From a virus, in the IMG/VR virus record IMGVR_UViG_3300007960_000141, positions 1-27,321 of that record: a stretch of 27,321 nucleotides of DNA; one strand, given 5' to 3'. A program made the position numbers and the translations under genes. Positions 9,167-27,207 of the stretch are shown piece by piece; within the stretch, counting starts at the first letter, position 1; each line of letters begins with the position of its first letter. The notes beneath the pieces were generated by a model, which had not been told where the DNA came from, searched no databases, and saw only the letters and a list, made by a program, of their open reading frames with translations.

Positions 9167-12100
9167 ATGCCAGAGTTAAAAAGAAATTTTCTGAAAGGTA
9201 AAATGAATAAAGACCTTGATGAAAGGTTAGTTCCTAATGGTGAATATAGAGATGCTTTAAACATAGAAATATCTACGTCAGAAAGCTCTAATGTTGGCTC
9301 TGCTCAAACATTAAGAGGGAACTCTAAGATTACCACTTCTTTAAATTTATCTTCAAACGCTATAGCTGTTGGTCATTATGTTGATAATGAAAATTCATTA
9401 ATATATAGCTTTATACATAAAGCAAGTGATTTTGACTCTAATGGTTTAGGCGTTAGATCTGACGCTATCATTGTAACAGATCCAAAAACAAGCATTTCAA
9501 GATTTGTTTTTGTTGATGTTTATGACGTTAGATATATACCAGACGCAATTAGTGATATAACTATAACTGGGATTAGTGGCCAATCAGTTACCGCTGATTC
9601 TGGTATACTTTTTAGTGGACCAATAGGTATTAGAGTTGGAATGAGAGTTCAAGCTATTGACACTAATGGTAATGATTTGTGGGGTATTCAAAATGATGTT
9701 AAAGTAAAAAGAATTAATGTAAACGCTTCATCAATAAAAATCACTGAAGTTAATGGTATAGCTACACCTTATACTGCTCAAAATATATCAGATGAAGTAT
9801 ATATTAAGTTTACTTCTGAAAGAGTATTAAATTTTCAAGCTGGTACAACAGAAGAAGAAAGTAATGTAACTGGATCTAGCGGAGCTAAATACACTCCAAA
9901 TAACAACATAATAACAGGTATAAACATAGTAGATGATTTTCTATTATTTACAGATGGTAGAAATGAGCCTAAAAAAATAAATATAACAAGATTTTTAAAC
10001 AGCGCAGCAAACCTAACCACTCATTCTAAATTAAGATTAATAAATAACGAAAGTATTGTAGATACTTATGAATACGCTGATGAATCTCATATAACTGTCA
10101 TACGTAAAAATCCAACGCTACCGTTATTGATAGAAAACAAATATTCTGAATCTTACGGCGCTACATTCACTCAAGTAACTGGCAATACATCTGGCTTCGC
10201 TAGTTTTTTTGAAGCTAATTTTGCACTGCATGATGGTGCAACCTTGTTAGATACTGGAGATTATTTTTATATAAAAACAATAGCTAATACTAATTATCCA
10301 ACGAATATATTACTAAAATTAGTTGGTAGCAGTTCAGGTACAATTGTTTATGCCTATGTATCTAGTGTTAATCTTGATGGAGATAATGAATATAAATTAA
10401 GGCTAACTTCAACTCCAGAGGGCTATACAACTAGTGAAGGTGCAGAATCATGGACAGTTAGTGTTGTGAATAATTCAGAGTTATACAAAACTTCTTTTGT
10501 TAATTTTACTTATAGATATAAATATACAGACGGAGAGTTATCTTGCTTAGCGCCATATTCTTTACCAGCTTTTTTACCTAGCGTTTACTCCTACAGTCCT
10601 AAAGACGGATTTAATTTAGGAATGGAAAATCAAGTTAGTGAAATTAAAATAAAAGGATTTAATAACTTTAATATACCAAAAGACGTCGTTGGCATTGATA
10701 TAATTATAAAATCTAGCTCTTCAGAAAACCATTACATTATTAGAAGCATAAATAAAGAAGACGAAGAATTTTCTGAAGGTATATACAATGACGGTGTATT
10801 TAATAGTAATTATAGAAGAGGGTCTATAACGTTAACCAGCAAGGCTATAGGTAGAACTTTAGAGTCATCTCAAATAACAAGAATATTCGACAACGTACCC
10901 AGAACTGCTTTAGCGCAAGAGTTTTCAGCGGGTAGATTGCTGTACGGCAATTATTTAGAAGATTATAATTTATCTGCAGCTGGTAAAAAAATAAATCCAA
11001 AAATTGGTATTAATGCTGTTAAAAATAGTAGCGCGTTTTCCGCAACGTATGCTGGTGATTACCTATTTGAAGCTAACGCCAACGCAAGCGATAACAATTC
11101 AGTTGTGTATAACGATGTAGTACCGTGCACGACAGAGTTTGACCCTTCTAATAGCTATGATAATTCTAACTATGTATTTGATGTTCCAGAAGACGGCACA
11201 TATGGCTTTGAAGCTAGCATTGATATTATGGGTTATTTTGACCCTACTGGAGCAGGTAATTCTAATAACTGGGTACCATCGGATTTTTATTTGGCTTTAT
11301 GTGAATCTAACTCTACTGGCTCTGTAATAGGCGACGAATTAATAACCGGTAACATAAATGGTAATACTAACGAGTATGTTTCTTTATACTTGAATGGTGA
11401 GGTTGCTTTAACCTCAACTCAATATGTGTGTTTGGTTCTTAAATTAAATAATACTGTAGATCAATATGACGCTAAAAACGCTCGTTTTCAATGTGTAAGT
11501 AGTCCTTCTACGACTTACACATTAACTACACTAAAAGGAGTTCCATCAATTAAATCGCTGCGAACTTATAAAGTTGGTATAGTATATGCTGATAAATATG
11601 GAAGACAATCAACAGTTGTTGTAGAAGAAAAATCATCTTTATCTTTATCAAAAACATGGGCTCAATACCAAAGTAAACTACAAGTAACAGCTAGACATCT
11701 AGCTCCATACTGGGCTGAAACTTATAAGTTTTTTATAAAAGAGGTTTCAAAGCAATATTATAATCTAATATTAGACGCTGCATTTGATAACAACGATAAC
11801 GAAACAGCGTGGCTAGTATTTAATAGTGCCGATAAAGATAAAGTAAAAATAGGAGATTATTTAATTCAAAAAAAATTACATAATTCTATTTCTCCAGTAA
11901 CGTCTGAAGACGCTAAATGGAAAGTGTTAGATATACAAGGCACAGCAACTAATTTTTCTAATCCTTCGGGCGATAATGCAGGTGATAGTTCATTTTCTAT
12001 AGGAGATAATAATATTACAATATCTAACGCGATAATAAGTCAAGCTTCAGATTTAATAAGTAAGTTTTTTGTTAAAGTAAATTTAGACGCTAACTTTACT

Positions 12101-15100
12101 ACTTATATTGGAAATGATTTTGCTGACTTAGGCTTAATTGGAAATAATAATGGGGCTGCTTTTGAGACAGAGCCAAAAGAAACTTTTGACTTAGATGTGT
12201 TCTATGAAGTATCTAAAGCGTATCCTATTAAACTAACAAATAAAAATGCTTACGAATACATAGAGATAGGATCTAGTGTTAGTTTTTTTAGTTCAGATCC
12301 AGATACAGAAGAATTAGAATTTCTAGTAGATAACTTAATAGATACTTACGGTGGTCAATATGGAAAAGTAATTCGTGTAGATGGAGCTTCATCTTTTCCT
12401 ATAGGATTAGATTGGACTTCGTCTACTCCAAATTCTGCAGTATGCACAATAAAACTAGATCAAAACCTTCCATTTAACTTAATTAGCTCGTATAATATTA
12501 GACTTAAGTTTAAAAGCTTAGATGGTAGTTATGTTACTGCTAAAGTTATTGATTCAGCTTTAGATACCATTAGAGTAATACCATATACACATCCAACGGC
12601 ATTACATCAAGACGTTACTTGCTCTATAGCTTTACCATTCAGTAATTGTTACGCTTTCGGTAATGGAGTTGAATCTGATACTATTCGTGACGACTATAAT
12701 GCTGAATCAATATTTCCTTATGTTCAAACTGGAAAACAAAGTGGATTTAGATTTAGCCTTCCTGACGATGGGTATAAAGAATTAAAAGAGTCTACTAAAA
12801 TTATATATTCAAACATCTACAACGAAGACACTAAAGTAAATAAAATTAATCAATTTTTAGCTGGAGAAAATATAGTTAAGTCTATTAATCCAGAAAATGG
12901 TAGTATTCAAAAATTATTCTCAAGAGATACTGATATAATAATATTTTGCGAGAAAAAAGTTTTAAGAGGTCCAATAAATAAAAACATTCTATACAATGTT
13001 GATGGCACATCTCAATTAGCGGCTACACAAAAAGTAATTGGAGATGTATATCCTTATGCTTCTGGCGATCATGGTATATCAAGAAATCCAGAATCATTCG
13101 CTGTTGACGAGTTTAGAGCTTATTTTGTAGATAAAGCAAGAGGATCTGTTTTAAGATTATCTAATAACGGATTAACAGTTATTAGCGATTATGGAATGAA
13201 TGATTGGTTTAGCGATAAACTTAAGACCGCGCAATCTATAATTGGTAGTTTTGATACAGATAAAAACGAATATAATATTACAGTACACGAAGTAACTAAT
13301 CCTGGTTGGAAAAAGAATGTGTATACTTTAAGTTTCAACGAAGATACTAATGGATGGGCATCGTTTAAATCTTATATAAAAGAGCAAGGGTTTTCTTTAG
13401 ATAATAGATACTACACTTATAAAGCCGGCCATATCTGGGAACATGAAAGTGACACTGTTAATAGGAATAACTTTTACGGCACAGACAATAATTCTACAAT
13501 CACTTTATTATTTAACGATCAACCTGGACTTGTAAAAGAGTTTACAACAATAAATTACGAAGGTACACAATCAAGAATTGTAGAATTTACAAATGAATCT
13601 GGATATGATGACGGTGAATATTATAATGTTTCCGCTAAAACTGGTTGGTACGTTAATAATATAACAACAGATTTGCAAGATGGATCTGTTCCAGAGTTTA
13701 TTGAAAAAGAAAACAAATGGTTTAATTACATACAAGGTAGTTCCACTACTTTTGATAATAGTACTGGATCTGGTACTCTAGACACCAAAGAATTTTCTGT
13801 TCAAGGTTTAGGATTATTACAATCTGATGCTACAATAATAGAAGGTTCTATAAATGATTCTGGAAGTAATTTAATATTTAATAATGCTACAGGTTTGTCT
13901 ACAGTTGGATGGACTACTACAGGATTATCTTTATATGGTGTTTACGCTTTAGATGGAACCCAAGATAATACTTTCACTATAGAACCTCAGCCTGGTTATG
14001 TAGTTTCTGCTAGTGACTTTTACAATGATACCACGTCAATTTATTATAGTGATGTGACTTTTAGTGATACAGGTGTTGCTGGAACTCCTAATAATACAAT
14101 AACCGTAACAATAACATTTATAAATCAAACTCTAGGTAATGAGAATGTTCTTGATTTAGATTTAGATATACAATCCCCAGATCCAACGGCACAAACTTAT
14201 GATGTTTGTTATAGATTTGCAGTCGCGAATGTTTCAAGCGCCAATCAAGGATATAATTTATCAAGTAACCTAGCCGATTGGAGTGTTGATGAGGTTTATA
14301 ATGATTTTTTTGAGCAAAATTATACGCTTAGCGGGCAAGCTAATTATGGCGTGCAACAAGTTTTTAATTTAACGATTTATGCCGAAAATGGTTACTTTTT
14401 TAGTCAGGCACCGGAAGTATCTACAGAAAGTAATACAGCCTCTTATACCGTAAGTTATTCAACTAATACTGAAAATGAAATAATAGAATATAATTATGTT
14501 TTCAGTGATTTAGTTTACTATGATGTAGATATTGCCAACGCTGCTGCAATCTTCGTGATAGGAGGTCAAGTAACAGCTAATTCAGCTACTTTTGAATACG
14601 ATCAATATTATTTAGATAATTCAGCGGTAACAGATTATTTTCTTCCAATAATAAACAACGGTTCAATACCTCAAGTAAGTTTAGATCCAGCTGATACTTG
14701 GATTAGTATTTCTAGTGTATTTCTTGATGGTATATATTTCGATATTGATGCTAATGCTGGCGCTGATAGAGACGCTATAATAACAATGTATGATTCATAT
14801 GATATTGCGCAGTCGGATGCTCAAACAACAACTATAAACCAAGCTACTGCAAGTTTAATTTCTATAGCATCTATTTGGAACCCAGGAGTTTATTATAACG
14901 CTATTCAAACTAATACGTTTATATTAACGTCAAATGGATCGGCTCCTGTTGTTGGTGATTTTTCTATAGCATATACAGACGGATCTGGATGGCTGTCCAT
15001 AGACAGTATAAATGATTTAGGTGACAATCAATATGGCGTTGTTGCTTCGTTTACTGAAAATACATCTGGCGCAGATAGATCCGCTACAGTAACAGTAACG

Positions 15101-16081
15101 CACTCAGATACTGTTACAACTAGCAATGTCGATATTACTCAACTACGTAATTATAACTCATCATTAGATACGATTGACATATATTCAGATTCTGATTGTT
15201 CAGCGTTTACTACGTTTGGATCGGATGTTATTAAAGAAGTTGTAAGTTCTAGTAGTAGTTTTAATATATACGCTAAAAGTAGTAGCGGCTTAGCACCAAC
15301 GGCTATAATACAATACGATAATGTTCTTTCGAACTGGAATAATACAGATGAAAATGTCCCAGAAGTTTTAGTTGGCACACAACAAGAAGGTAATCCTGAT
15401 CTTGAAATACAGCTTAATCAATCAGATCAACAACAAGCATTGACTTGCGGTGGTAATGGATGGGTTTATACTGTGGATGTTTCAGAAAACTATAAACGAA
15501 ATCTTAGAATAGCTCAAGTACATTTCTTTTTTGAAGGTAGTAATTATATATCAAATAATACCGGAACACCTGACGCGACTTTATATGTACGGCAAGAAGG
15601 CATGCACAAAGCATATTTTTACTCTGTAAATAACGTTCTTGTTAACACGTATTCAAGCTTATGGCCAAACGCCTCGTCTGGACAAGAACCGTTATATTGC
15701 CCGGTGGTATCAGTAGATTCTGCAGCAACAACTATTAATGTACAGTTTAAGACTGAGATAAATGAAGCTACAGCGCCAACAATAAAATGGTTTTCGATAT
15801 CACCTCTTTCAGCTGGAGAAAGTTATGATTGGGACACACTATGGAGCGGTTCTGCTTTAATGTACCCAGATACTACTGCCCCGTCGTATGTTAATACTGT
15901 AAGTGAAACTTACAATGATAGCGAAGGTCTTGGCACGTATAGTTTATCATTCGACGCTTACAATGATGCTGGTGGGTCTACGTATAGATCTATAAGATTA
16001 GGTATTTGGCATCCTAGCACCACTGGAGACACAAGACCAAACTTTGAAATAGAAATAAGACAAGATAACGCAGCTTTGTAA
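9167..16081 (+). CDS. Tail nozzle/stabilization protein (T7 gp12-like role) with C-terminal Ig/BACON array
   Basis: A 2304-residue tail protein. The N-terminus (FLKGKMNKDLDERLVPNGEY, then RDALNIEISTSE) is the hallmark, as I recall it, of the 'stabilization' or tail-tube-B-like proteins of crAss-like and marine podoviruses, which form the beta-propeller-rich end of the short tail. That core appears to run to about residue 1520, ending GWYVNNITTDLQDG...KENKWFNYIQG. Beyond it, about 780 residues form an appended array. First come Ig-like stretches around PGYVVSASDF (1609-1618) and NGYFFS (1741-1746). Four BACON-like repeats follow, with anchors W1845/R1868/Q1892, W1942/R1971/Q1992, W2099/Q2143 and W2208/Q2299. 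No signal peptide or transmembrane segment. The array probably contacts surface polysaccharide, making this protein both nozzle and receptor-binding element. It ends one base before the next gene. Confidence 0.78.
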   Translation: MPELKRNFLKGKMNKDLDERLVPNGEYRDALNIEISTSESSNVGSAQTLRGNSKITTSLNLSSNAIAVGHYVDNENSLIYSFIHKASDFDSNGLGVRSDAIIVTDPKTSISRFVFVDVYDVRYIPDAISDITITGISGQSVTADSGILFSGPIGIRVGMRVQAIDTNGNDLWGIQNDVKVKRINVNASSIKITEVNGIATPYTAQNISDEVYIKFTSERVLNFQAGTTEEESNVTGSSGAKYTPNNNIITGINIVDDFLLFTDGRNEPKKINITRFLNSAANLTTHSKLRLINNESIVDTYEYADESHITVIRKNPTLPLLIENKYSESYGATFTQVTGNTSGFASFFEANFALHDGATLLDTGDYFYIKTIANTNYPTNILLKLVGSSSGTIVYAYVSSVNLDGDNEYKLRLTSTPEGYTTSEGAESWTVSVVNNSELYKTSFVNFTYRYKYTDGELSCLAPYSLPAFLPSVYSYSPKDGFNLGMENQVSEIKIKGFNNFNIPKDVVGIDIIIKSSSSENHYIIRSINKEDEEFSEGIYNDGVFNSNYRRGSITLTSKAIGRTLESSQITRIFDNVPRTALAQEFSAGRLLYGNYLEDYNLSAAGKKINPKIGINAVKNSSAFSATYAGDYLFEANANASDNNSVVYNDVVPCTTEFDPSNSYDNSNYVFDVPEDGTYGFEASIDIMGYFDPTGAGNSNNWVPSDFYLALCESNSTGSVIGDELITGNINGNTNEYVSLYLNGEVALTSTQYVCLVLKLNNTVDQYDAKNARFQCVSSPSTTYTLTTLKGVPSIKSLRTYKVGIVYADKYGRQSTVVVEEKSSLSLSKTWAQYQSKLQVTARHLAPYWAETYKFFIKEVSKQYYNLILDAAFDNNDNETAWLVFNSADKDKVKIGDYLIQKKLHNSISPVTSEDAKWKVLDIQGTATNFSNPSGDNAGDSSFSIGDNNITISNAIISQASDLISKFFVKVNLDANFTTYIGNDFADLGLIGNNNGAAFETEPKETFDLDVFYEVSKAYPIKLTNKNAYEYIEIGSSVSFFSSDPDTEELEFLVDNLIDTYGGQYGKVIRVDGASSFPIGLDWTSSTPNSAVCTIKLDQNLPFNLISSYNIRLKFKSLDGSYVTAKVIDSALDTIRVIPYTHPTALHQDVTCSIALPFSNCYAFGNGVESDTIRDDYNAESIFPYVQTGKQSGFRFSLPDDGYKELKESTKIIYSNIYNEDTKVNKINQFLAGENIVKSINPENGSIQKLFSRDTDIIIFCEKKVLRGPINKNILYNVDGTSQLAATQKVIGDVYPYASGDHGISRNPESFAVDEFRAYFVDKARGSVLRLSNNGLTVISDYGMNDWFSDKLKTAQSIIGSFDTDKNEYNITVHEVTNPGWKKNVYTLSFNEDTNGWASFKSYIKEQGFSLDNRYYTYKAGHIWEHESDTVNRNNFYGTDNNSTITLLFNDQPGLVKEFTTINYEGTQSRIVEFTNESGYDDGEYYNVSAKTGWYVNNITTDLQDGSVPEFIEKENKWFNYIQGSSTTFDNSTGSGTLDTKEFSVQGLGLLQSDATIIEGSINDSGSNLIFNNATGLSTVGWTTTGLSLYGVYALDGTQDNTFTIEPQPGYVVSASDFYNDTTSIYYSDVTFSDTGVAGTPNNTITVTITFINQTLGNENVLDLDLDIQSPDPTAQTYDVCYRFAVANVSSANQGYNLSSNLADWSVDEVYNDFFEQNYTLSGQANYGVQQVFNLTIYAENGYFFSQAPEVSTESNTASYTVSYSTNTENEIIEYNYVFSDLVYYDVDIANAAAIFVIGGQVTANSATFEYDQYYLDNSAVTDYFLPIINNGSIPQVSLDPADTWISISSVFLDGIYFDIDANAGADRDAIITMYDSYDIAQSDAQTTTINQATASLISIASIWNPGVYYNAIQTNTFILTSNGSAPVVGDFSIAYTDGSGWLSIDSINDLGDNQYGVVASFTENTSGADRSATVTVTHSDTVTTSNVDITQLRNYNSSLDTIDIYSDSDCSAFTTFGSDVIKEVVSSSSSFNIYAKSSSGLAPTAIIQYDNVLSNWNNTDENVPEVLVGTQQEGNPDLEIQLNQSDQQQALTCGGNGWVYTVDVSENYKRNLRIAQVHFFFEGSNYISNNTGTPDATLYVRQEGMHKAYFYSVNNVLVNTYSSLWPNASSGQEPLYCPVVSVDSAATTINVQFKTEINEATAPTIKWFSISPLSAGESYDWDTLWSGSALMYPDTTAPSYVNTVSETYNDSEGLGTYSLSFDAYNDAGGSTYRSIRLGIWHPSTTGDTRPNFEIEIRQDNAAL
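14633..16063 (+). repeat. Four BACON-like protein repeats encoded in tandem
   Basis: Coding repeat at the 3' end of the nozzle gene. Each unit has a Trp-containing strand (DTWISI, SGWLSI, GNGWVYTV, IKWFSI), a central strand pair, mostly with an Asn/Arg-centred turn (ANAGADRDAI, NTSGADRSATV, SENYKRNLRI), and a final strand ending in Gln (TTINQA, VDITQL, YVRQEG, EIRQDN). The first two are clear. The third and fourth are weaker and lengthened by inserts. BACON domains are known from Bacteroidota proteins and a crAssphage tail protein. Confidence 0.6.
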
Positions 16082-21100: not shown

Positions 21101-24100
21101 CGTTAACTAAAGGAGAGTTTAACGTTGCTTCTCATGAGTTTGTTCACGTAGCGTTTTCTAATACGTTAAAAGCAGACCCAATAGCTAGAGAAAAATTAGG
21201 TGGCGTTATAGATGACATAATAGATAGTGGTGATATTAAGTTTGAAGAAGGTCAAAGAGAAGCTTTTGATAAAAAAATAAACTTATATGACGCTAGCAAA
21301 AAAGGTGAAGAAAAACTAACGTTTTTAACAGAGTTTGTAAGAGCAAATAAAGCTACTATAACTGAAACAGGTTTTGATAAATTAAAAGGTATGTTTAGAC
21401 GTTTTGCTCAAACTTACCTTGGTCGTGATATTAAATTAGATACTAAGCAAGATATAGTAAACTTTATAAAAGACTACGACATATCTATACAGAACAATAA
21501 ACCTAATAAGGCGATTATTCGTATGCTTGAAAACGGAGCTAAAGGTAAAATGTTCAAAGACGCTAGAACTCCACAAGAAGTAAAAGCTCAAACAGAATAT
21601 TCTAGGGCTTTAGAAGCTAACATGAAGTCTAAGCCAGATTTAAAAGAAACATTCGACAAGCATGTCCAAAATCCTGACGGCACTCCTAAATATAACTCTC
21701 AAGCAGAGTTTGCTGTTGCGCCTGACTTTACAGACGCTTATTTTGCTATAGTAGAAGGTAGATCATTAGACGCTTTAATACAACAAGGCATGACGGCTCA
21801 AGGCTTACCGCCTGAAGCTTTACGTGAGTTTACTAGAAAAGTAAAAGAAGAGTTAGGTAGAAGATTTTTACAAAACTTTAACTTAGACAAGAATAAAAGT
21901 CTATTCGGTTGGTTGACCGGTGTATCTGGCGGAGCTGGTATGTCAATTATATATAGAGCTAAAGGCGATGTGATGAATCAATATAAAGCTGAGCAAAAAG
22001 CTGAAACTGTTTCCACAGATGCTCCAATTGGTGAAACTGGCACAATAGCAGATGTTATAGCTGAAGATAGTTCTGTATTAGACTTTTTGGAAGACCAAGA
22101 TTTAAGTGTAGGTAGACGTGACGCTATAAGAGACGTTGCTACAACAGAATTAATAGCTAAAGACGCTTTAAATTTTGATCAAAACGCTAAAGACGCTATA
22201 GCTGAATTAGCAGCTGAATCTGGTATATCATTAGATGATTTAACATATAAGGGCTTTAAAAAGCTTATGGTTGACGCTATGAAAGTAGACAAAAACGGTA
22301 AGCTAAAACCACCAACAAAAGAAGCTGATGTAACGCCAGTAGGAGCGCTTTATAACATCTTAGAGATAGTTTCTTCTGAATTTGGTGTTGATCCATTAAG
22401 AATACTAGCAAATCAAGATTTGGACAGTGAGATGAGACGCGCTGCTCAAGAGTATATATTAGACAGATCAACTAATCAAGACGGTAGCTTTAACGATATT
22501 ATATTTAAACTACTACCAGAGGGCGAAACTAGAAGTGGTGAAGCTACTGGTGTTGCTAATACTAAGCTTGGAGATTTTTACGAAACTGGTGAGAGAGTTA
22601 AGGTCTCTGAAGGTGCGGCTAAATCTTTAGGTCAAAAGAAAGCTCAAAATAAAAAGTCTAAAATTACTAAGCAAGAATTTTTAGACATGTTTAATATAAA
22701 CGCGGATGGCACCTTTAGATCTGATAAGTCTGCTGACGGAGCTATAAAAGCTTTGATAGTTCAAATGGCTCAGCTAACAGCTAACCAAGAGTTAAGAATA
22801 CAAAAGCTTGCTAACGGTACGGTGTCGGAAGCTATAGCTGCTAAACTTGCTGATGGTAGATCTGAAATGGTGTTTTCAGCAGATAATCCTGCTCAAGATA
22901 TAGTTAATGATAGATGGCCAGAGTTAGTTGGAGTAGTCACGGGCGTTAGAGAAGAAGAAGGTGTAAGACAAGCTGTTGATAACGTATATGGCGAAGATAT
23001 AAATAGTGAGGAAAAAGAAAAAATAGTAAAACAAATTACTAAAGATATTCAAGCGTTTATAGAGGTTGACCAAGTTTTAAAAGGTAAGTTTGATGAAATA
23101 GCTATACAAACTGAAACTGAATTTATACTTAACCAATGGGAAAGTAGAAACTGGGAGCAAGGCATTAACGCAGCGGCTAAAGGTCTACCTAATATACCTA
23201 AAGGCTTCAAGGCTGGTAATGTTGCTAAAGATATTGAAGGCGCTACTAAAGCTAGAGGAAATTTAAAAATATCTGCTAGAAATATATTTAACAAACATGG
23301 CGTTTCTAAAGGTTTGAAACTTATAATAGGTCATTTGCAACCTTCGTTTGCTGGGGCTGGTAAAATGGGAACTGGAGGCCTAACGGTTGACAAACCAGGT
23401 GGAAACGTTATAGTAAATAAAAATCTAACAAGAGGTACTGAAAACAGATACCAAGTTGTTGAAAGTAAAGAAGATTTTGATGCTTTAATAAAACAAGCAC
23501 TGCCAATTGGGTATTCATTTGAACAAGTTGGTAAAGGCAAATATAAAATAACAAATCCTGACGGAACTACAGAGATAATAAAAACTACTCTACCTAGTGA
23601 AAGTACTAGTTCTTTCTTAAAAGACATGGATTATGAAGGTAGAAAGAAGGACGCTGAAGATGCTAGGGCTATAACAGAGGATATGTTAGATGAAGCTTGG
23701 GCCAGATCTCAAGATCCTAAAGATCCATTTAACGAGCAAGACTTTGTGTTTTTGGTAATGACATTAGGATCTAGCATGAACGCGCCAATAAGAAAAAGTG
23801 CTAATCCTGAATATATTCAAGACGGTATACAAGAGTTGTTTGAAAAAAATCCTAAAAAAATAAACCAGTTAACTCAGTATGAGCACATGAAGTCAAAAGA
23901 ACTTGCCTCTACTGAAATAATTCAAGGATATAAAAGAAACGGAAAGTTTGATAGATCGGTTTGGGATGGTTATAATGTTCAAATAATAACTAAACAACAC
24001 GATAAACTTATAAATAAAGCTGGCTATCAAGTTAAAAGCACTCCAGACGGTTCGTTTAGAGCTTATAGCGTGGGAGTAATGGTTGAGATACTAAAAGATC

Positions 24101-27100
24101 CGGCTAAACTTAAGTTTGTGAGACCAATGAGAAGTCTTGATCCTGCTAAAAAGGGTACTGATCAAGAAATAGTTGGTCAAGGTTTTGTTGATTCTGTGAC
24201 AGATCTTATTACTAGACCTACTCAAGTAATTGCTCAAACTTTTGCTAGAATACAAAGAACTCAGGACATGATGATGAGTAAAGCGGAGCCTGAAACTAGA
24301 GGCGCTTCTGTCTTTGACTTTGACGAAACATTAATCATAGATGGCGAAAACTTTATTATTGCTACAAATCCTGACACAGGTGAACAAACTAAGATAAGCA
24401 GTGGTGACTGGCCAATAAAAGGACCTGAATTAGCTGATAAAGGTTACACGTTTGACTTTAAAGACTTTGTAAATGTAAGAGGTGGAGTTGAGGGACCTTT
24501 ATTCCAGAAGTTATTAAATAGAATTGAAAAGTTTGGTCCTGAAAACGTGTTTATATTAACTGCTAGACCAGCTGAATCCGCTCAAGCAATACACGAGTGG
24601 CTTAAAACTAAGGGTATTGAAATACCTTTTGATAATATAACTGGCTTAGGAAACAGCACTGGTGACGCTAAAGCACAGTGGATGCTTGAAAAATACGAGG
24701 AAGGCTATAATGATATGTATTTTGTTGATGACGCTCTGCCCAATGTTGAGGCTGTTCAGCACGTATTTAATCAACTTGACAATAAAGGTAAAGCTGTCCA
24801 AGCTAGAATAGAGTTCAGCAAACAAGCGGCCGATGAGTTTGATCGTATAGTACAAGACGCTAAACCAGTACAAGATGATAGATTAGACTTTAACGTTATT
24901 TTAGAACAAACAAAAGGCGTTGATAGAAGAAAAAAATTCTCTCAAGCTGACGCTAGAAATAAAGGTAAAAAGAAAAATCCGTTTAAATTTTTCCTACCAC
25001 CAAGTGCAGAAGACTTTAAAGGTTTAGTGTATTCTTTTTTAGGTAAAGGAAAACAAGGTGAAGCTCATCATAAGTTTTTTAAAGACAAACTATTTGATCC
25101 ATACGCAAAAGCTATAAGAGCTATAAACTTATTAAAGCAATCTGCTGCCGCAGATTATAAACAACTAAAAAAGAATAATAAAGATTTAGCTAAAACTCTT
25201 AAAAAGTCTGTGCCTGGAACTGACTTTACTATAGAGCAAGCTGTAAGAGTTTATAACTATGATAAAGCTGGATATGAAGTACCAGGTATAACTCAAGCTG
25301 AAAAAGTTAAACTATTAAGTCATGTAGGTACTAACTCAGAGCTTAGAGATTTTGCTAATGCTGTTCAAGCTATAACCTATAAGTCTGGTGGTTTAGTTGA
25401 ACCTACTAGTATTGAATGGTTATCTGGAACAATATCTTCAGATCTTAATGAATCTACAGAACTAACAAGATCAACACTTCTTGGAGAGTGGGAAAACAAT
25501 ATAGCTGAAGTATTTGGTACGTTGGATTCAAATGGTAACTTACAAGGCGAGAATATTGAAAAAATAAGGGCTATATACGGAACTGACTTTGTAGAAGCTT
25601 TGAGTGACGTTATATATCGAATGAAAGAAGGTACTAATAAGCCTTCTGGTCAAGGTAGACTTGTTGGTCAATTTAATCAGTGGATAAATGGTTCTATCGC
25701 GTCTACTATGTTCGTTAACGCTAGATCAGCCGTACTTCAAACGTTATCAACTGTTAACTTTGTCAACTGGAGCGATAACAATCCATTAAAAGCTGGAAAA
25801 GCATTTGCTAATCAAAAACAATTTTGGTCGGACTTTTCAATGATATTTAACTCTCCTTTTCTTAAGCAAAGAAGATCTGGTGTCCAGCAGGACGTTAATG
25901 CTAGAGAGATGGTTGAGAGTTTAAAAAATGCTAAAAGTCCAGTTAGAGCCGCCATAGGTTACTTATTACAAAAAGGATTTTTACCAACGCAAATAGCGGA
26001 TAGTTTTGCTATAGCGTTTGGTGGAGCGACATTTTATAGAAATAGAACTGAAAGTTATTTAGCAGAAGGTATGACTCAAGAAGACGCAGAAGCTAAGGCT
26101 TTTGAAGATTTTCAAGAAATAGCAGAAGAAACACAACAGTCTGCTAGACCAGATCGTATCTCTATGCAACAAGCATCTCCACTTGGAAAACTTATATTAG
26201 CTTTCCAAAATACGCCAATGCAGTATAATAGATTAATGAAACGTGCGGCTCAAGATTTAATAAACAATAGAGGTAGCAAAATAGAAAATTTATCTAAAAT
26301 AGCTTATTACGGCGCTATACAAAACGCTATATTCTATAGCTTACAACAAGCATTATTTGCTTTAGCTTTTGGTGATGATGATGAAGATGAAAAATCTAGC
26401 GAAAAGAAAAACGAAGGATATGCTAGAGTGACCAACGGAATGCTTGACACTTTGCTAAGAGGTTCTGGTATAGCTGGAGCCGTTGTATCTACGGCTAAAA
26501 ATATGATATTAGAATTCTTAGAACAAGAGGAAAAAGGCTATAGAGCTGATCACGCTTATACTCTTCTTGAAATGCTTAATCTTTCACCTCCAGTAGGTAT
26601 TAAAGCTAGAAAACTATATTCAGCGACTCAAACATGGGAGTTTAATAGAGACGTTATAAGCAAAATGTCAAAAACAAATATTGACAATCCAATGTATGAC
26701 GCCGCGTTCTCTGCTATTGAAGCTACAACAAATATACCTCTGTCTAGAGCTTATTCAAAAATGAATAACGTTAGAGAGGCTTTAAACTCTGATAATGAAG
26801 CATGGCAAAGAGTTGCAATGTTCTTGGGTTGGTCGTCTTGGAATTTTGGTATACAAAATCAAGATGTAATAGCGGCTAAGCAAGAGGTTAAAGTAATTAA
26901 AGCTGAAAAATCAAAAGAAAAAGCAGAAAAAAGAAAAATTGAAAAACAAAAAGAAAACGAAGCTATTGTTAAAGAAAACTTAGAAAAACAAAAAAAAGAA
27001 GGCGATAAAGCAACTTGCGCGGCTATAGGTACTGATGGAGCTAGATGTAAAAGAAAACCTGTTAAAGGAGGGTTTTGTACCATACATGAAAAAGTCGATC

Positions 27101-27207
27101 AGCGAAAAGATGGCAAAAAAATAAGATGTAAAAAAATAAAGTCTGATGGCACAAGATGTAAGGTTGAAACATCTAACAAGTCGGGTTTTTGTTACTATCA
27201 CGATTAA
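18115..27207 (+). CDS. Giant polyvalent virion protein (zincin, sigma-like, HAD phosphatase, zinc modules)
   Basis: A 3030-residue protein resembling the multidomain 'large polyvalent proteins' of phages, which are thought to enter the host with the genome. In order: a duplicated 30-residue motif (7-58); charged helices (70-440); hydrophobic, Gly-rich segments (about 445-475, 543-575, 690-715); coiled coils (740-860); a zincin-like site H1007-E-F-V-H1011 with possible third ligand E1073; a sigma-70-like stretch (1217-1318); an HAD phosphatase with D2068/D2070/T2072, T2149, K2186 and D2205/D2206; and a conserved helical region (about 2500-2860, RSAVLQTLS at 2537 and NFVNW at 2548, perhaps LPD38-like). 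A Lys/Glu coil and two CX9CX9-10CX2H modules (2968-3029) end the chain. Residues 1-2967 contain no cysteine. No lysozyme or RNA polymerase motif was found. Likely roles are channel formation and takeover of the host on entry; these are inferred. Confidence 0.75.
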   Translation: MDQVKRLYDVLVRDGHYTKSFEEFKGRFENEDYQQRVFDVVSKEGLFTKGINEFKSKFVVKKQSVTPPSISFASDEISLGTPESQFDLTAPKSYSDILKNQAVDESDEGNIRKSRSIELQQIQQIAEALGLQDTSEKSVLDELDKINQFEKDLKAKSGQQEKFGKFDKSFFDSEEYKDYRVKKDAIKDLDWNNKKFESAKKNFLIEDTARRSYVQNLALPKYIKTKGLDLEGLSKEDKEAEVSKILNSEEYKVFEGNIANNLTDEQKQEQKDEVNQTFLQNKTSSLLEDRISKELEKQEEESGMSGLLYDVVEFAKKGFTTSYGVSLPSEREVKRGLLEKEAKADLENINKEFKTYSDNLSIINKDMLTIQKQMSDINNYFEKTDPKSFTEQSQVDEYNSKAETFNKLRAKAKQYRATADKMYDRMEPLSEKAGEIDSYLKAVTRSPNYITAFTGNLANSAIDLAQGIAGAADMIFYHLPAQILEDIDDIQTKGFADASDNVPRSSAVGRLNEKIDNFQEENITSQIRKPVEFSEIESATDAVEWGANLLATQAPQLALMTVTGGASLYVMGASSAGNKFYELQNQKVLYYKTGGLYGSNHNFYTMALNASFSGAAEALSEKITLGSINKTKSILGGLSKETVKDGYFNYLKKNVFTWQNTKANAIEFFEEGASESVSTISSNFADILSGDKEKNIYDGVTESFVSGVAISGTIQSPRLFAAMSAPFKSEETNRRTSDIAAELNAISIEMVKLPESFEGTELDKKRSELEDRYAALVEEANQAIEQDVKRVNVLTDQEKADLINIERGNQKIRSQVSKINANSELTEDQRKAKLEDLKQQWVDNANKKQDILSKYPVTEVDAKYKQDIEGVKAYQKEVNDRGVVEINVAERSQQEFEDMISKDVSDASLAELEDFTMEVGGMAIGYEAIVKDPDSTLEEKAEAQAALEDLANKTMSGIEAVDFIKGNARNFGAMTPRFNEKGHVVGMDININKDRALTKGEFNVASHEFVHVAFSNTLKADPIAREKLGGVIDDIIDSGDIKFEEGQREAFDKKINLYDASKKGEEKLTFLTEFVRANKATITETGFDKLKGMFRRFAQTYLGRDIKLDTKQDIVNFIKDYDISIQNNKPNKAIIRMLENGAKGKMFKDARTPQEVKAQTEYSRALEANMKSKPDLKETFDKHVQNPDGTPKYNSQAEFAVAPDFTDAYFAIVEGRSLDALIQQGMTAQGLPPEALREFTRKVKEELGRRFLQNFNLDKNKSLFGWLTGVSGGAGMSIIYRAKGDVMNQYKAEQKAETVSTDAPIGETGTIADVIAEDSSVLDFLEDQDLSVGRRDAIRDVATTELIAKDALNFDQNAKDAIAELAAESGISLDDLTYKGFKKLMVDAMKVDKNGKLKPPTKEADVTPVGALYNILEIVSSEFGVDPLRILANQDLDSEMRRAAQEYILDRSTNQDGSFNDIIFKLLPEGETRSGEATGVANTKLGDFYETGERVKVSEGAAKSLGQKKAQNKKSKITKQEFLDMFNINADGTFRSDKSADGAIKALIVQMAQLTANQELRIQKLANGTVSEAIAAKLADGRSEMVFSADNPAQDIVNDRWPELVGVVTGVREEEGVRQAVDNVYGEDINSEEKEKIVKQITKDIQAFIEVDQVLKGKFDEIAIQTETEFILNQWESRNWEQGINAAAKGLPNIPKGFKAGNVAKDIEGATKARGNLKISARNIFNKHGVSKGLKLIIGHLQPSFAGAGKMGTGGLTVDKPGGNVIVNKNLTRGTENRYQVVESKEDFDALIKQALPIGYSFEQVGKGKYKITNPDGTTEIIKTTLPSESTSSFLKDMDYEGRKKDAEDARAITEDMLDEAWARSQDPKDPFNEQDFVFLVMTLGSSMNAPIRKSANPEYIQDGIQELFEKNPKKINQLTQYEHMKSKELASTEIIQGYKRNGKFDRSVWDGYNVQIITKQHDKLINKAGYQVKSTPDGSFRAYSVGVMVEILKDPAKLKFVRPMRSLDPAKKGTDQEIVGQGFVDSVTDLITRPTQVIAQTFARIQRTQDMMMSKAEPETRGASVFDFDETLIIDGENFIIATNPDTGEQTKISSGDWPIKGPELADKGYTFDFKDFVNVRGGVEGPLFQKLLNRIEKFGPENVFILTARPAESAQAIHEWLKTKGIEIPFDNITGLGNSTGDAKAQWMLEKYEEGYNDMYFVDDALPNVEAVQHVFNQLDNKGKAVQARIEFSKQAADEFDRIVQDAKPVQDDRLDFNVILEQTKGVDRRKKFSQADARNKGKKKNPFKFFLPPSAEDFKGLVYSFLGKGKQGEAHHKFFKDKLFDPYAKAIRAINLLKQSAAADYKQLKKNNKDLAKTLKKSVPGTDFTIEQAVRVYNYDKAGYEVPGITQAEKVKLLSHVGTNSELRDFANAVQAITYKSGGLVEPTSIEWLSGTISSDLNESTELTRSTLLGEWENNIAEVFGTLDSNGNLQGENIEKIRAIYGTDFVEALSDVIYRMKEGTNKPSGQGRLVGQFNQWINGSIASTMFVNARSAVLQTLSTVNFVNWSDNNPLKAGKAFANQKQFWSDFSMIFNSPFLKQRRSGVQQDVNAREMVESLKNAKSPVRAAIGYLLQKGFLPTQIADSFAIAFGGATFYRNRTESYLAEGMTQEDAEAKAFEDFQEIAEETQQSARPDRISMQQASPLGKLILAFQNTPMQYNRLMKRAAQDLINNRGSKIENLSKIAYYGAIQNAIFYSLQQALFALAFGDDDEDEKSSEKKNEGYARVTNGMLDTLLRGSGIAGAVVSTAKNMILEFLEQEEKGYRADHAYTLLEMLNLSPPVGIKARKLYSATQTWEFNRDVISKMSKTNIDNPMYDAAFSAIEATTNIPLSRAYSKMNNVREALNSDNEAWQRVAMFLGWSSWNFGIQNQDVIAAKQEVKVIKAEKSKEKAEKRKIEKQKENEAIVKENLEKQKKEGDKATCAAIGTDGARCKRKPVKGGFCTIHEKVDQRKDGKKIRCKKIKSDGTRCKVETSNKSGFCYYHD
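18133..18288 (+). repeat. Two tandem 30-residue motifs at the N-terminus of the giant protein
   Basis: Residues 7-28 (LYDVLVRDGHYTKSFEEFKG...) and 37-58 (VFDVVSKEGLFTKGINEFKS...) align with a period of exactly 30. Pattern: hydrophobic-aromatic-D-V, three residues, G-x-aromatic-T-K, three residues, E-F-K, two residues, F. It is a short helical repeat with no catalytic residues, and may serve as a packaging or docking tag. Confidence 0.75.
27016..27201 (+). other. Coding segment for two C-terminal zinc-binding modules
   Basis: Module 1: C2968, C2978, C2988, H2991 (CX9CX9CX2H). Module 2: C3005, C3015, C3026, H3029 (CX9CX10CX2H). Both share the core DGxRCK and GFCxxH. Similar short Cys/His modules occur in assorted viral and phage proteins; zinc binding is inferred from ligand spacing. 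Confidence 0.7.

Follow-up and report, generated by a model that had tools for sequence, protein, structure and literature searches.

Phage-encoded sigma factors are common, and packaged RNA polymerases are known. For phages without a packaged polymerase, early takeover has mostly been assumed to depend on "strong host promoters". The model for the possible role of the giant protein described here is gp50, the virion RNA polymerase of N4 and other schitoviruses, a giant (~3,500 aa), multi-domain protein that is carried in the virion, ejected, and used for early transcription (PMC12633501). While gp50 is itself a polymerase, the present protein has a sigma-like module only; no polymerase was detected, and we infer its virion location. 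A second point of comparison is the late sigma factor gp55 of T4, whose sigma2-like domain is not accompanied by a canonical region 4 and whose structure (7d7c_F) was among our top fold matches. Unlike the present module, which belongs to a giant and probably packaged protein, gp55 is small, free, and produced during infection.

A further parallel is with the polyvalent proteins encoded by phages and conjugative elements, which are described as huge and multi-domain. The giant protein resembles these descriptions in both respects and in having a possible metallopeptidase motif. To our knowledge, their described components do not include a domain like sigma region 2. In the literature searched, we found neither a packaged sigma factor nor a sigma-like domain within a giant virion protein. 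For the phiEco32-like phage SU10, the ECF sigma was reported from a PEG-concentrated sample on the basis of a single peptide, and this is no demonstration of packaging (PMC4281155).

The giant ORF and its neighborhood

The window, meaning the whole 27,321-base virus record analyzed here, is from an uncultured marine phage and contains a block of terminase, portal, and structural genes with the giant ORF as the last gene. The features of this ORF are listed in Table 1. The portal protein is nearest to those of podovirus-like Bacteroidota phages, namely Maribacter phage Panino, the Flavobacterium elemo phages, and Cellulophaga phi38:1. The giant ORF occupies the gene position of phi38:1 gp101 (Pervagoviridae), which likewise follows the structural module and is annotated as "structural protein". 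The match between the two proteins is restricted to residues 513-852 of the giant (24.5% identity). gp101 has 1691 aa compared to 3030 aa, and the sigma-like segment was not detected in it; in the stretches examined of phi38:1, elemo, Panino, and ctfjg026, which have the syntenic giant gene, there was no detectable sigma-like copy. Based on the gene position, the structural annotation found there in phi38:1, and the analogy with N4 gp50, the giant protein is probably virion-borne, and from the same evidence we infer that it is ejected. No member of the exact family has so far been observed in a virion.

Table 1. Features of the giant ORF and its sigma-like segment, with positions in the window
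Feature	Residues	Coordinates	Strand	Basis
Giant ORF, multi-domain	3030 aa	18115..27207	+	Single 9,093-base ORF, preceded by genes for terminase, portal, and virion structure
HEFVH (HExxH), possible metallopeptidase motif	1007-1011	21133..21147	+	Motif
Predicted sigma-70 region 2-like domain	~1155-1297	21577..22005	+	AF2, Foldseek, profile chain
SLDALIQQG, putative equivalent of the region 2.1 helix	1217-1225	21763..21789	+	hhalign registers
Helix ALREFTRKVKEELGRRFLQN, putative equivalent of the sigma 2.2 helix	1233-1254	21811..21876	+	AF2 helix 79-100; window family-A9 alignment
NFNLDKNKSLFGWL, putative equivalent of sigma 2.2-2.3	1254-1267	21874..21915	+	Alignments; F1255-W1266 spacing of 11
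Glycine-rich loop TGVSGGAGMS	1268-1277	21916..21945	+	Alignment, AF2
Helix IIYRAKGDVMNQYKAEQKAET, putative equivalent of the region 2.4 helix	1278-1298	21946..22008	+	AF2 helix 124-144; near-invariant YRAKGDVM
TDAPIGETGTIADVIAED, sigma 3.2-like acidic linker	1301-1318	22015..22068	+	Sigma 3.2 HMM; AF2 confidence low
Downstream helical domain, C-terminal end LPEGETRSGEATGV		22102..22554	+	Without sigma region 4 signal
C-terminal domain used to find sister giants	2498-2755	25606..26379	+	Matches at least 569 IMG/VR stretches

Several other features of the neighborhood were recorded. An HExxH-type motif is present in 95/117 long giants, and the copy in the window begins at residue 1007. A DFDET HAD-like motif lies at residue 2068 (nt 24316-24330), and the extreme C-terminus (27013-27204) has two Cys/His repeats, the first of which resembles DUF5763 (Pfam PF19067, 1.3e-6). 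A second very large protein of the window (9167-16081, 2304 aa) matches the PHROG virion structural protein phrog_14478. A homologous giant in BFVD, A0A218MLT5, is named "UDP-N-acetylglucosamine kinase", a name that looks doubtful for a protein in such a position. The syntenic giants Panino CDS0069 (L077) and UOF82488.1 (L079) have the equally doubtful names "tRNA methyltransferase" and "reticulocyte binding/rhoptry protein".

The sigma-like segment and its predicted fold

Sequence comparison and structure prediction identify residues ~1155-1297 of the giant protein as a diverged, sigma-70 region 2-like domain; region 2 is the core part of bacterial sigma factors that melts DNA. This part of the protein is strongly conserved, and the alignment of 46 non-redundant IMG/VR homologs has the near-invariant core SLFGWLTG...IIYRAKGDVM. 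An earlier note had suggested a sigma-70-like segment here from three strings, and these were found at the residues it gave: SLDALIQQG from residue 1217 (nt 21763), NFNLDKNKSLFGWL at 1254-1267, and TDAPIGETGTIADVIAED at 1301-1318. The note had equated SLDALIQQG with the sigma motif "LDLIQEG", which is one helix out of register. Alignments that run from the window to the sister groups A9 and A8 and then to sigma factors place SLDALIQQG on "LRLVISIAKKY" instead, and sigma LIQEG...F corresponds to the helix that follows it in the window (residues 1233-1255, ALREFTRKVKEELGRRFLQNF). The string at 1301-1318, likened by the note to a region 3 segment, resembles the region 3.2 linker; the sigma 3.2 HMM has its best match of the whole protein there. 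The observation of the earlier note is thus partly confirmed, and its interpretation is partly supported.

F1255 and W1266 are separated by 11 residues, identical to F419-Y430 of E. coli RpoD. The same spacing is present in 59/59 A8 and 54/56 A9 members, counting the members where the pattern was found. The glycine-rich loop that follows splits the 2.3-2.4 helix, which is unbroken in sigma factors; the loop is shorter in distant relatives.

For structure prediction, AlphaFold2 was given residues 1155-1350 with 50 sequences. The mean pLDDT was 80, and block means were mostly 84-98 over the first 143 model residues. When the model was compared to the PDB with Foldseek, the nine highest-probability matches (0.20 to 0.38) were all sigma factors. 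On isolated region 2, the TM-score (target) reached 0.61 at 3.5 Å with 8b3z_A and 0.59 with 4lup_A. An earlier, broader model built from 28 sequences likewise had sigma factors on top. No E-value against the PDB was significant (best 1.4 for the 50-sequence model, and >0.1 throughout for both models). Against viral models, a homologous giant was first and the phage sigma factor RIO-1 was second (probability 0.72), followed by T4-type and ECF sigmas. Since the sigma hypothesis predates the searches, this ranking is a prediction that was passed and not a proof. The two checks that the earlier note had named point in different directions: the window sequence has no significant profile match, but the AF2 fold has the region 2 arrangement.

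The link to sigma factors through sister giants

The window sequence did not match a sigma factor in Pfam, NCBIfam, PHROGs, or PDB sequences, and neither did the window-family profile or the window homologs when searched likewise. When the window family was compared directly to sigma profiles, hhalign gave 11% in the expected register, with a score that exceeded every one of 200 column and 200 block shuffles. This match disappeared once the sigma profile was enlarged to 78 sequences with the region 3 columns retained. Because the direct comparison is weak and unstable across sigma profiles, it was not relied on.

Sister giants, found through the C-terminal domain, gave a clearer picture. In 55/71 long giants among the best 80, the sigma-like segment was found by a window-, A8-, or A9-type profile, and in every one of those 55 it lies before the C-terminal domain. 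The window family aligns to A9 (hhalign 99.2%, pairwise E-value 6e-20), A9 aligns to A8 (96.7%, 4e-10), and A8 aligns to eight host sigma-70s (65%, 6e-5). The score of this last step was 39.8, compared to a mean of 16.5 and a maximum of 25.7 for 100 block shuffles. With 64 A8-type members and region 2 of 26 sigmas, hhalign gave 77% and 2e-5. The same sister comparisons were weak with larger or ECF-only sigma profiles, and therefore the signal is to primary-type sigmas. As an example, the A8-type segment of one sister (L393), ILEAFKPITTRIARRFRDVPGYDEQLVIDEIETGKRGIFDLIREYKPESGVPLAAYINKFLPARSIEA, aligns on RpoD MVEANLRLVISIAKKY. A8 and A9 appear to be versions of one slot, because members of the two groups can share nearly identical downstream sequence, as L453 and L525 do.

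Individual sisters also match sigma models. The A9 member L520 matches TIGR02937 (5e-5), TIGR02952 (8e-4), TIGR02479 (1e-3), and CAS_III-E_sigma (4e-3), and another A9 member, L371, matches PF04542 (1.4e-3). L453 matches SigK (0.013), and in a search over 146 ORFs it matches an HMM of host sigma-70 with a domain E of 4.8e-6. All sister matches to curated sigma models score below the curated cut-offs, the best being 18.9 bits compared to the PF04542 cut-off of 24; the window has no match. Among 177,635 PDB sequences, the top two matches of the A8 profile were sigma factors (E 0.12 and 0.27). The A9 profile found no sigma factor in the PDB sequences, and with the A11 profile sigma factors were mixed with unrelated matches, none of them significant.

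The resemblance to sigma factors is more than chance in these sequence comparisons, although it is clear only through the sister families. A chance likeness of a short helical stretch would agree with the lack of a significant match for the window sequence alone and with the Foldseek E-values against the PDB. It is the least probable explanation we considered, given the transitive steps of 6e-20 and 4e-10 with their shuffle controls, the direct matches of sister members to sigma models, the position of sigma factors as top non-self matches in two structure libraries, and the exact 11-residue spacing.

The location of the signal was examined by asking where in the whole giant each HMM scores best; the members are related, so the counts are not independent. 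An HMM of region 2 from 26 primary-type sigmas scored best at the segment in 8/24 sisters (0.8 expected by position) and in 6/44 of the window family (1.4 expected). When region 2 of all 78 sigmas was put into one broad HMM, the best match fell at the expected place in 0/44 of the window family and 0/24 of the sisters. The sigma 3.2 HMM was best at 1301-1318 in 14/44 of the window family, including the window itself (0.78 expected), and at the linker position in just 2/24 sisters. Since so few sisters show it, the 3.2-like linker may be specific to this branch, or it may have arisen by convergence. We rejected the idea that the downstream domain is a sigma region 4: the region 4 HMM scored best there in 4/44 (3.1 expected by position), in agreement with the earlier note, which had found no region 4.

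The module is present in hundreds of IMG/VR contigs from related uncultured phages, at the same place in the giant. No carrier was found in the bacterial genomes searched for the domain. The annotated collection of cultured and deposited phages that we searched had no match to the giant family with the C-terminal domain (25606-26379), and no record in it had the sigma-like giant family. The result also offers an initial reading, at the level of domains, of a large protein family that is unannotated.

Functional residues and possible roles on entry

The contacts of sigma-70 with the beta' clamp, which we take to be D403, Q406, E407, N409, and M413, correspond in the chain register to F1239, K1242, V1243, E1245, and R1249 of the window. 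The clamp contacts are not kept in the window branch, while the A8 sister group retains acidic residues and glycines in region 2.2. W1266 aligns with Y430, and the W433/W434 pair that reads the -10 element is missing from the window branch. ECF sigmas are also without this pair.

Compared to sigma-70 region 2 (PF04542; TIGR02937), the module has the same helical arrangement, the F-x10-aromatic spacing, the 2.1 to 2.4 register, and a 3.2-like acidic linker after it. Unlike sigma-70, it comes without regions 4, 1.1, and 3.0-3.1, has lost the clamp contacts and the W pair, has a glycine loop within 2.3-2.4, is embedded in a 3030-aa protein, and stays below every curated cut-off. What is novel is a new architecture and a new branch of a known fold. 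Because the clamp contacts are lost and relatives have a separate sigma factor, we call it a sigma-2-like module within a protein that is probably virion-borne.

The explanation we rank first, with a little less than an even chance, is that the module is a partial sigma, consisting of a diverged region 2 and a 3.2-like linker, that docks on the host polymerase at entry. The giant protein, probably carried in the particle of a podovirus-like Bacteroidota phage, would enter the host cell. There the target of the module would be host core RNA polymerase or else melted DNA, and by docking it would hold or divert the polymerase for the incoming genome until the separate ordinary sigma factor of the phage, once expressed, takes over. 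Since region 4 is absent, no ordinary -35 recognition would be involved. We count in favor of this explanation the profile chain, the sister matches, the AF2 and Foldseek results, the 3.2-like linker, the synteny with phi38:1, and the stand-alone sigmas. Against it we count the lack of a direct window match, the weak direct profiles, the Foldseek E-values, the lost clamp and W residues, the lack of a virion sighting, and the presence of a dedicated sigma already. RNA-polymerase capture on entry is plausible, and the presence of the domain at one place in hundreds of related phages suggests that the virion may contain a part with which to take over host transcription.

In second place is the possibility that the fold was retained while the function was lost. 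The domain would then descend from sigma region 2 and now be a structural or DNA-handling module with no contact to RNA polymerase. We consider this quite possible, as the window branch keeps neither the clamp contacts nor the -10 W pair, a conserved glycine loop breaks the 2.3-2.4 helix, region 4 is absent, and relatives have a separate sigma factor. On the other hand, the 2.2 helix that the A8 sisters keep in this slot (EIETGKRGI..LI) is far closer to that of sigma factors, and the window branch has the 3.2-like linker. The lost clamp-contact residues also bear on a competitor role, in which the domain would replace host sigma on core polymerase and shut off host transcription at entry. Having a 3.2-like finger but no region 4, a sigma2-like fold could fill the clamp without supporting promoter recognition, but with those residues lost in the window branch this role is very improbable.

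The docking explanation can also be stated for the whole group: a large uncultured marine phage clade would pack a sigma-like factor in a giant ejected protein and seize host RNA polymerase on entry. In this broad form the claim is unlikely. If true, it would be a third solution, beside reliance on host sigma and the packaging of a phage polymerase. A sigma-like module in a probably ejected giant would make physical capture of the polymerase at entry testable.

Near-complete relatives have a separate ordinary sigma factor of ~250 aa, sigma-70-like, with regions 2 and 4. This stand-alone sigma was found in 11/34 and 16/30 records of relatives; the window is too short to reveal a stand-alone sigma gene of its own. 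Because relatives encode an ordinary sigma factor, the phage group uses a sigma-based takeover, and the module of the giant would act either earlier, on entry, or not on polymerase. The earlier note had gone further than docking: if real and ejected, the segment could steer host RNA polymerase to early phage promoters, as a working packaged sigma. Region 2 and a 3.2-like linker are present, the top fold matches include T4 gp55, a sigma factor that lacks a canonical region 4, and the T7-type RNA polymerase profile PF00940 was found in 0/20 related records, although control genomes likewise gave no match. However, the module is without region 4 and without the -10 reading residues, no known promoter motif is tied to the domain, the window contains no early genes, and the genomes of relatives hold an ordinary sigma factor elsewhere. 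We therefore consider a working packaged sigma quite improbable, and any promoter-directing activity is putative.

The stand-alone sigma loci are L177-L186 and L426-L437, from the records behind L002, L004, L008, L016, L023, L024, L026, L027, L053, and L073, among others. In the nearest relatives, a gene for a conserved protein of ~206 aa lies directly upstream of the stand-alone sigma gene.
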